DNA from: Fimbriiglobus ruber
Lineage (GTDB): Bacteria > Planctomycetota > Planctomycetia > Gemmatales > Gemmataceae
Assembly (NCBI RefSeq): GCF_002197845.1
Contig: NZ_NIDE01000014.1
Span: 806,001 to 870,000, forward strand
Length of the DNA stretch: 64,000 nt
Direction of reading: 5' to 3'
The translations under genes and the position numbers were made by a program. Positions 3,275 to 60,285 of the stretch are shown one piece after another. Every line of letters begins with the position of its first letter. Within the stretch, counting starts at the first letter, position 1. The notes beneath the pieces are model-generated. The model did no database searches. It saw only the letters and a list, made by a program, of their open reading frames with translations, and was not told the origin of the DNA.

Positions 3275-5284
3275 ATGCCCCACCACGGCTTTCTCCGCGT
3301 CGCCGCCGCCGCCCCGGAATTACGGGTCGCGGATTGCCGCTACAACGCGGAGCGGACGCTCGACCTGCTCCGGGCGGCCGACGACGCCGGCGCGAACCTC
3401 GTCGTCTTCCCCGAGATGGGGCTGACCGGATACACCTGCCACGACCTGTTCCACGACCAGACGCTCGTCCCGAGCGCGGCGGCTGCCCTCGACACGCTCT
3501 TGGGCGCGGCCGAGATGTTCTTCGGCGGGGTCGCCGTCGTCGGGCTGCCGGTGTACGCGGACGGCCGACTGTTCAACTGCGCGGCCGTGTTCCGCGGGGG
3601 CAACCTGCTCGGCGTCGTCCCCAAGTCGTTCCTGCCGAATTACAAGGAGTTTTACGACGCGCGGTACTTCGCCCCGGCCTCGGCCGCCGTCGCGGACACC
3701 GTCACCCTGGCCGGGCGGACGGTCCCGTTCGGCACCGACCTGCTGTTCGAGTCGGCATCCGTCCCGGGGTTCGTCCTGGGCGTCGAGATCTGCGAAGACT
3801 TGTGGACGCCAATCGCCCCGAGTTCTCTGCAAGCGCTGGCCGGGGCCACCGTGCTGGCGAACCTGTCGGCGAGCAACGAGACGATCGGGAAGGCGTCGTA
3901 CCGCCGGCAGCTCGTCGCCCAGCAATCGGGCCGGTGCCTGGCCGGGTACGTTTACGCGGGCTGCGGGCCGGGGGAATCGACCACGGACGTCGTCTTCGGC
4001 GGGCACTGCATGGTCGCCGAGTGCGGGACGATGCTGGCCGAATCCGCGCGGTTCCGGCGGGACGGCCACCTCACGGTCGCCGACCTCGACCCGGACCGCA
4101 TCGCCCACGACCGCGTTGTCACGGGCACGTTCCACGGCAACCACCTGGACGCCCAGCGGACGAAGACCTTCCGCCGGATCAAGTTTACCCACCTGATCGA
4201 CGCCGACCGGGGGCCGGCGCTCGTCCGGCCCGTGGACGCGCACCCGTTCGTGCCGTCCGACCCGGCCACGCTCCGCGAGCGGTGCGACGACATTTTCCAC
4301 ACCCAGGTCTGCGCGCTGGGCAAGCGACTCGACCACGCCGGCCGGCCGACGGTCGCCATCGGCGTCTCCGGCGGGCTCGATTCCACGCTGGCCCTGCTCG
4401 TCGTCTGCAAGACGTTCGACGCCCTCGGGGAACCGCGGGCGAAGATCCAGGCCCGCACGATGCCCGGGTTCGGGACGACGACCCGGACGCTGGCGAACTC
4501 GCGGGCGCTGATGACCGATCTCGGCGTCACGGCCCGGGAAATCGACATCCGGCCGCTCTGCCTCGAACAACTCCGCGCGCTCGGTCACTCGCCGTTCGGT
4601 ATTTCGCTCGACGGCGCCACGGTCGACGGCTTGTCCGACAGGCTCCGGAACCTGCCCGTTGACAAGCGGAACGACCTGGTGTTCGAGAACGTCCAGGCCC
4701 GCGTCCGCACGAGTTTGTTGATGAACACGGGCTTCGTGATCGGGACCGGCGACCTGTCCGAACTCGCGCTCGGCTGGTGTACGTACAACGCCGACCACAT
4801 GAGCATGTACAACCCGAACATCGGCATCCCGAAAACGCTGGTCAAGTTCCTCGTCCGGTGGGCGGCCCAGACCGAGTTCACCGGCTCCGGGCGGGACACG
4901 CTGATGGACGTGGTGGCGACCGAGATTTCCCCGGAATTGTTGCCGCCGAGCGCGACGGGCGAGATTGTCCAGTCGACCGAGCAGGCCATCGGCCCGTACG
5001 AGTTGCACGACTTCTTCCTGTATCACTTCCTGCGGTTCGGGGCGGCTCCCGAGAAGATCCTGTTCCTCGCCGGGCAAGCGAAGTTCAACCGCCCGTACAC
5101 CCCGGACGAGATCCGCCGGTGGCTGGCGGTCTTCCTGCGGCGGTTCTTCGCGAACCAGTTCAAGCGGTCGTGCGTGCCGGACGGCCCGAAGGTGGGCAGT
5201 GTCAGCCTGTCCCCCCGCGGCGACTGGCGGATGCCGAGCGACGCGACCGCCCGGGCCTGGCTGGACGCCGTCGAGCGGGGGTAG
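3275..5284 (+). CDS. nadE: Glutamine-dependent NAD(+) synthetase
   Basis: The 669-residue two-domain enzyme makes NAD+ from deamido-NAD+, ATP and glutamine in the cytoplasm. Residues 1-290 form a nitrilase-type glutaminase with the expected triad Glu47 (FPEMGLTGYTCHDLF), Lys117 (VVPKSFLPNY) and Cys173 (GVEICEDLW). The C-terminal synthetase has the ATP-binding P-loop SGGLDS at 365-370. The later blocks are GTGDLSELALGWCTYNADHM and KRSCVPDGPKVGSVSLSPRG. The length fits the long bacterial (NadE2) form. The gene is complete, with no sign of frameshift. A repeat-rich region follows. Confidence 0.96.
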   Translation: MPHHGFLRVAAAAPELRVADCRYNAERTLDLLRAADDAGANLVVFPEMGLTGYTCHDLFHDQTLVPSAAAALDTLLGAAEMFFGGVAVVGLPVYADGRLFNCAAVFRGGNLLGVVPKSFLPNYKEFYDARYFAPASAAVADTVTLAGRTVPFGTDLLFESASVPGFVLGVEICEDLWTPIAPSSLQALAGATVLANLSASNETIGKASYRRQLVAQQSGRCLAGYVYAGCGPGESTTDVVFGGHCMVAECGTMLAESARFRRDGHLTVADLDPDRIAHDRVVTGTFHGNHLDAQRTKTFRRIKFTHLIDADRGPALVRPVDAHPFVPSDPATLRERCDDIFHTQVCALGKRLDHAGRPTVAIGVSGGLDSTLALLVVCKTFDALGEPRAKIQARTMPGFGTTTRTLANSRALMTDLGVTAREIDIRPLCLEQLRALGHSPFGISLDGATVDGLSDRLRNLPVDKRNDLVFENVQARVRTSLLMNTGFVIGTGDLSELALGWCTYNADHMSMYNPNIGIPKTLVKFLVRWAAQTEFTGSGRDTLMDVVATEISPELLPPSATGEIVQSTEQAIGPYELHDFFLYHFLRFGAAPEKILFLAGQAKFNRPYTPDEIRRWLAVFLRRFFANQFKRSCVPDGPKVGSVSLSPRGDWRMPSDATARAWLDAVERG

Positions 5285-5365
5285 GCGCCGAGGGGCTTGC
5301 CCTCTGTCCAGCGATTGAAGCGGTCGTCAGCAGTCGGGTGGGTGGGGATTCCGGGGAGGGCGTCT

Positions 5366-5682
5366 TGGGGCTCGGCCCCAAACCCCGCCGGAGGGGCGGG
5401 ACCCCTCCGGACCTCCCATCGGCTCCCGATCCGTGGGGCGATCCCAGAGCGGATCGCCCCACGGATCGCTCGCGGGACCGTTTGTTGCCCAAACTCGAAC
5501 CGAGCGGGCCGTCGATGTCTTCTCACCTCACGAACCGTCACTGTCTTCCGCCGAAATCAACCCAGGCCCCTGCGAGCGACCCGCGGACTCATCCGCTCTG
5601 GGATGAGTCCGCGGGTCGGGAGCAAGTGAGGAGGTCCGGAGGGGTTCGACCCCTCCGGCGGGGTTTGGGGCCGAGCCCCAAG
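5366..5682. repeat. Pair of inverted multi-hairpin units with covarying stems
   Basis: The outer arms at about 5366-5416 and 5630-5682 are near-perfect inverted copies. Each contains the mini-hairpin TTGGGGCTCGGCCCCAA and a CCGGAGGGG/CCCCTCCGG stem with different loops. Inside each arm lies a longer hairpin: 5427-5468 and 5577-5618, each an uninterrupted 18-bp stem with a six-base loop. Read in the same sense both loops are CAGAGC. The stems differ at several positions, yet both sides change together and pairing is kept. Flanks (GCTCCC before, GCTCGC after) are also conserved. No ORF is credible in 5285-5827. Confidence 0.85.
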
Positions 5683-5827
5683 GTGTCACCCCACAAAAAC
5701 CGTCCACATGACCAGGCACCGGCACCAGCACAGGTAGGTTTCCCAGCGCCCTTGTCGGTTCGCGCGGGGGCCGATACTTTATAACCTTCTATCGTTAAAC
5801 GACGGATTTACTCTCGGAGCGCGAACG

Positions 5828-6088
5828 ATGGTCGAACGGCGGATCGAACTGGACCGGCGGTACCAGCGCAAAAAGAAGATGCACAAGCTCAAGGCCAAGC
5901 TGATCGCGGCGCCGGCCGGTCCGGACCGGGAGAAGATCCTGGAAAAGATCAAGCGCATCAGCCCGTGGTGGACCGAGGCATCCCTCAAGCCGGTCGCCCC
6001 GGAAGCCCCCAAGGCCGAAGCCGAGGCCGCCAAGGAGCCGAAGAAGCCCAAGGCGCCGCCGAAGCCGAAGCCCGAAAAGAAAGCCTGA
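5828..6088 (+). CDS. Small basic protein, planctomycete DUF6800-like
   Basis: The 86-residue protein starts at the ATG at 5828. The N-terminal half (MVERRIELDRRYQRKKKMHK, then a KLKAKL helix and REKILEKIKRISPWW) is the conserved part, remembered as a small planctomycete family (DUF6800). The rest is an Ala/Pro/Lys-rich tail of EAPKAEAE and PKKPKAPPKPKPEKK type, probably disordered. The high positive charge suggests nucleic-acid or ribosome association, but no domain proves it. A strong hairpin terminator follows eight bases after the stop. Confidence 0.7.
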   Translation: MVERRIELDRRYQRKKKMHKLKAKLIAAPAGPDREKILEKIKRISPWWTEASLKPVAPEAPKAEAEAAKEPKKPKAPPKPKPEKKA

Positions 6089-25524: not shown

Positions 25525-25570
25525 CGGTCCGGGGCGGGCGCGACACCAGTGCCGCGCCCGCCCCGGACCG
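25525..25570. terminator. Strong hairpin terminator after the PhoB-type gene
   Basis: A perfect 18-bp stem (CGGTCCGGGGCGGGCGCG and complement) with a ten-base loop lies 21 bases past the response-regulator stop. It separates the pst-pho run from the PHP phosphatase gene, which therefore probably has its own promoter. Confidence 0.8.
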
Positions 25571-60244: not shown

Positions 60245-60285
60245 AAGAAGGGGGCGGCGGTCACTCTGACCGCCGCCCCCTTCTT
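60245..60285. terminator. Bidirectional hairpin terminator downstream of the FabF-like gene
   Basis: A perfect 18-bp stem (AAGAAGGGGGCGGCGGTC and complement) with loop ACTCT lies 15 bases past the FabF stop. The stem begins and ends in A/T-rich steps, so termination in the minus direction is likely. Confidence 0.8.

Follow-up and report, generated by a model that had tools for sequence, protein, structure and literature searches.

Paired covariation is commonly held to be the strongest evidence that an RNA or DNA structure is functional, and positions 5366–5682 of the window analysed here (the whole stretch of 64,000 nucleotides from the planctomycete Fimbriiglobus ruber, family Gemmataceae) raise the question of what such covariation means when two neighbouring hairpins keep their loops and flanks while their stems differ and still pair perfectly. 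The first-pass annotation described two units of about 110 bases lying head to head, took the compensating changes on both sides of the stems as an indication of selection for pairing, and named a structured RNA, a non-autonomous mobile palindrome (REP-like) and a paired terminator as possible readings. The explanation that we favour, with a probability of about 0.68, is that the locus belongs to a ~450-bp non-coding, non-autonomous transposable element, found between genes at about 40 sites in a single Gemmataceae genome, whose stems stay paired mainly through a DNA mechanism.

The anatomy described at the outset is largely borne out. Both central hairpins (5427–5468 and 5577–5618) consist of a perfectly paired 18-bp stem and a 6-base loop, and a 47-nt pattern comprising the loop CAGAGC and the flanks GCTCCC and GCTCGC, read in the same sense, matches the window at these two places only, against a chance expectation of 0. 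The hairpins are enclosed by a 53-nt inverted repeat (5364–5416 and 5630–5682; 94% complementary, 213 nt between the arms). Arms of about 110 bases, each with three hairpins, are real, but the unit does not stand alone: homology between copies extends a further ~60–75 bp beyond the palindrome on each side, to give an element of ~450 bp (~5290–5738) that sits between a glutamine-type NAD synthase gene (3275–5284) and a DUF6800 gene (5828–6088). Its layout is an X flank of ~74 bp, a nested palindrome and a ragged Y flank, as follows.

5290–5363, plus strand: X flank; its outer end, GAGGGGCTTGCCCTCTGTCC, is conserved and abuts a direct repeat in other copies
5364–5416, plus strand: left outer palindrome arm, with HP1 (5365–5381), HP2 (5388–5410) and ACCTCC, from inverted-repeat search and alignment
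5427–5468, plus strand: hairpin 3 with type A stem and loop CAGAGC; outer flank GCTCCC, inner flank GCTCGC
5469–5571, plus strand: interior spacer, from the fold and interior divergence
5577–5618, minus strand: hairpin 3 with type B stem; its CAGAGC loop reads on the minus strand
5630–5682, minus strand: right outer arm, with HP2 (5636–5658) and HP1 (5665–5681)
5683–5738, plus strand: Y flank, outer limit approximate in the window copy; its length differs between copies

The fold energy of this segment lies far below that of shuffled sequences (z = −18.7), and the predicted fold is a cloverleaf or four-way junction of outer stem, hairpin A, inner stem and hairpin B, without unpaired bases at the junction; the inner junction stem is closed by GCTCGC (5468–5473) pairing with GCGAGC (5572–5577). 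The window also holds further long perfect hairpins at 25525–25570 and 60245–60285 (stems of 18 and 19 bp), unrelated to the element in sequence, and, at 2266–2594, a second MITE-like palindromic repeat family, with 45-nt arms (2278–2322 and 2369–2413; 98% complementary) and several dozen places in the same genome (105 matches, both strands counted).

The pair is no local accident. A covariance model (R1), built from 63 units, finds ~71 units in this genome (12.36 Mb, 20 contigs), where the element occupies about 40 dispersed places and where X and Y flanks occur only beside the palindrome. Elsewhere, a DNA search of 40 relatives and the covariance-model search of the other 94 genomes of the family returned none, 392 genomes of the phylum gave 2 weak arm-only matches, and the element was absent from the plasmids and phages searched and, by element-specific patterns, from GTDB contigs and IMG/VR. 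Among the genomes searched, the full element is thus restricted to a single planctomycete.

The outer two-hairpin arm motif, GGGGC-N3-GCCCC..CCCCGCC-HP2-GGACC, recurs more widely: 18 times in G293, a MAG from a distant planctomycete, a handful of times in others (loci in G293 and G142 are L129, L130, L135, L139, L142, L144, L146, L148 and L150), and on 19 diverse viral contigs in IMG/VR (L151–L169), the majority forming HP2 even though the search pattern left that hairpin unspecified. At L151, L153, L156 and L161 it occurs as head-to-head inverted pairs. Thirteen such loci searched against Rfam gave no match at the gathering score, and a control pattern for the wider motif gave 0 matches versus 4, numbers too small to use.

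Classified copies are nearly all intergenic, the strands of neighbouring genes being supported in several cases by Pfam matches. Between tandem genes, the X end lies at the stop of the upstream gene in 16 of 17 contexts; of 31 copies that could be classified, a single one sits in a convergent gap, a class that makes up 14% of background gaps of at least 150 bp, so the depletion is no more than suggestive of avoidance. Contigs C1, C17 and C19 each carry a single X orientation, which prompted the idea that orientation follows the replichore and not the gene; this was dropped, because the GC skew is slight and agrees in sign between C1 and C19, whose X orientations are opposite. Several copies stand out. 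L031 (1514–2435) and L033 (1695–2614) are longer, with ~700 bp between the arms and an ORF of ~150–160 aa each that has no Pfam match and is possibly captured cargo; the left flank of L027 (about 1393–1502) consists of tandem ~45-bp units of Y end plus HP1; and L013 and L015 (G000:C17:1071639-1071953 and G000:C3:437999-438312, the latter near a contig end) are near-identical, share flanking sequence and represent either a duplication or redundant assembly.

The ends of the copies indicate mobility. Each copy's bases immediately beyond X were matched to its own Y side, the Y sides of the remaining copies serving as control. In 7 of the 11 copies whose X end is intact (L002, L003, L006, L008, L011, L021 and L023; in L006 the repeat is two bases from X), exact direct repeats of 8–11 bp abut X. 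The summed score was 90, where permutations averaged 49, and none of 20,000 permutations scored as high. We read these repeats as target duplications; no clear one was seen at the window copy. The two ends are an unusual pair: X is fixed, Y is ragged (48–71 nt from core to direct repeat), and they are not inverted repeats of each other. Searching the genome for the X end with up to 3 mismatches gave 13 matches, 12 of them at elements and the remaining one with 3 mismatches, so that no autonomous partner with this end was found in the genome. Three Y1 transposase (Y1_Tnp) genes are present, and a link to RAYT enzymes was rejected because no element lies near them; likewise, none of 16 RT matches has an X or Y copy nearby. 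Five of the RT matches (L106–L110, on contigs C6, C9, C17, C18 and C20) have identical score and range, four of them in open frames of 715 aa, and are possibly a multi-copy group II intron.

The stems of these copies show the covariation seen in the window in a very strong form. Stem 3 has 42 distinct 5′ arms among 63 units, 54 of which are perfectly paired; of 1,118 cells, 1,108 are Watson–Crick pairs, 10 are mismatches and none is G–T, and no one-sided change occurs among the standard pairs. Double changes fill 253 cells compared with 64 in shuffles, about four-fold more, and exceed slid controls six-fold or more. The same stem alleles recur among copies. The compensating changes and their significance are accordingly confirmed, but the conclusion drawn from them, that they indicate selection for pairing, does not follow. 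In element pairs whose interiors are 8–15% diverged, 12% of stem pairs show two-sided differences and 1.3% one-sided ones; double changes thus reach 12% of stem pairs at an interior divergence of 13%, in a comparison made pairwise between elements and not on a tree. On these figures, double changes accumulate at about the interior substitution rate, a paired change behaving like a single event. The loop and HP1, by contrast, change much less than the stems (divergence of 5% and 3–6%, respectively, versus 15–18%), and therefore a sequence-specific constraint acts on them, which probably reflects recognition during transposition.

How one event might alter both sides of a stem is suggested by the copies in which the process seems to have gone too far. 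In five independent hairpins (L003, L013/L015, L025, L031 and L034), the inner flank reads GGGAGC in place of GCTCGC and so repeats the outer flank in complement. This overwriting lengthens the hairpin and destroys the inner stem of the junction, the opposite of what selection for the junction predicts. The loop of the L013 hairpin is inverted as well, and that of L031 carries a deletion. At a larger scale, the outer arms differ by 5% within an element and by 11% between elements, the unpaired HP2 loop is identical in both arms of 19 of 28 elements as against 6% between elements, and the core is turned one way against X and Y in 16 cases and the other way in 8. Overwritten flanks, the inverted loop, homogenised arms and the two core orientations, together with the lack of G–T pairs and the pace of double changes, point to DNA-level arm copying by template switching, as read from the aligned copies.

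Homogenised arms and inverted spacers have been documented as outcomes of polymerase template switching (PMC8604942), a process that has been proposed both to create and to maintain perfect pairing in hairpins (PMC8794818); by analogy, we infer that it is the source of stem pairing here. A stem or arm would acquire a mutation, and template switching during replication (quasipalindrome correction) or inverted-arm conversion would then copy one arm onto the other, so that the change would show on both sides at once. Overshoot of the copying would carry the flank along, and switching could invert the loop or the entire core, while the loop tip, flanks and outer arms, all conserved, would be the probable recognition sites of a putative mobilising enzyme. 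Several points count against this account. All five overshoots run from the outer to the inner flank, a bias that it leaves unexplained; exchange between copies could move ready-paired stems, as the recurring stem alleles allow; and the constraint on loop and HP1 means that part of the pairing may be owed to selection in the active lineage. Also against it stand the genome search that turned up no further element with the X end, the pairwise basis of the rate comparison and the window copy's lack of a clear target duplication.

Such selection on DNA hairpins could in principle explain the pairing as a whole. A transposase that recognises an extruded or single-stranded hairpin, as in IS200/IS605 or REP/RAYT systems, would let only source copies with paired stems spread. 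The conserved loop tip and GCTCCC/GCTCGC flanks beside freely varying paired stems fit this well, as do the three Y1 transposase genes and the precedent of REP palindromes, which likewise keep pairing through complementary changes (PMC2817692). IS200/IS605 elements, however, come without larger target duplications (PMC2817692), which does not agree with direct repeats of 8–11 bp; the Y1 genes have no element nearby; and the flank overshoot, loop inversion and homogenised HP2 loops are left unexplained. We therefore regard this explanation as unlikely, even when a mixed form is included in which arm copying is joined by possible selection for pairing in active source copies. It is more doubtful still whether the combination of one fixed end, one ragged end, variable target duplications of 8–11 bp and transcription-oriented placement in 16 of 17 tandem contexts signifies movement by an unrecognised route, either one-ended or SINE-like and RNA-mediated, for which the four-way-junction core would be the substrate.

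The readings that place the function in RNA fare less well. A structured RNA family with stems covarying under selection for folding would account for the very strong predicted fold and for covariation above shuffles and slides, but it would be expected neither to lack G–U in all 1,118 cells on the given strand and to show few A–C mismatches (G–U on the opposite strand), nor to have a core in both orientations, nor to be confined to one genome; with an Rfam search that returned just weak generic hairpin matches and none at the gathering score, we consider it highly improbable. A paired bidirectional transcription terminator between genes would suit the intergenic position of nearly all tested copies and the X end at upstream stops, yet no terminator-like site with a T tract was found within 5200–5900, and the near-absence of copies between convergent genes, suggestive as it is, runs the wrong way; this reading is scarcely tenable.

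For a transposable element probably kept paired mainly by arm copying, the implications are practical. Because very strong covariation here coincides with marks of DNA arm copying in a mobile repeat, covariation-based screens can go astray on intergenic repeats. The dozens of copies in one genome also make it a natural resource in which to measure template switching.

Among known systems, the element resembles bacterial MITEs in being short and non-coding, with many dispersed intergenic copies, an inverted-repeat structure and direct repeats at its ends. The usual form is under ~600 bp, without coding sequence and in multiple copies (L031 and L033 are longer, with ORFs), and target duplications of 8–11 bp flank 7 of 11 intact-X copies. 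It differs in that its inverted repeats are internal, its X and Y ends are not terminal inverted repeats beside the duplication, the Y end is ragged and the genome search yielded no parent IS with the same X end; it is MITE-like, but not a MITE in the sense that requires terminal inverted repeats.

The first-pass annotation's reading of a non-autonomous mobile palindrome is supported, the copies being many and their stems covarying. With REP and BIME sequences (GTAG and CGTC families, associated with RAYT), the element has in common intergenic hairpins in inverted pairs whose pairing is kept by complementary changes. The tetranucleotide before HP1, to be compared with the unpaired GTAG or CGTC head of REP hairpins, gives a mixed picture: CGTC in 30 and TGTC in 5 of 70 cases (together half), and AGTC, GGTC and the like in the others. 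REP sequences of the CGTC family, however, have a stem of 8–9 bp, a loop of 4–5 bases and the tail CCA (PMC3733652), whereas HP1 has a 7-bp stem, a 3-base loop and the tail ACC. The unit is also much longer (a 42-nt hairpin in a ~450-bp element), makes target duplications and, unlike repeats that flank a RAYT gene, is not found near any of the three Y1_Tnp genes.

In its multi-base paired changes, loop inversion and arm homogenisation, the element resembles the hairpins ascribed to template switching (PMC8794818, PMC8604942), showing arm homogenisation together with both spacer inversion and flank overshoot. It differs from them in that a mobile repeat presents these changes dozens of times over in the same genome, and at several nested scales.
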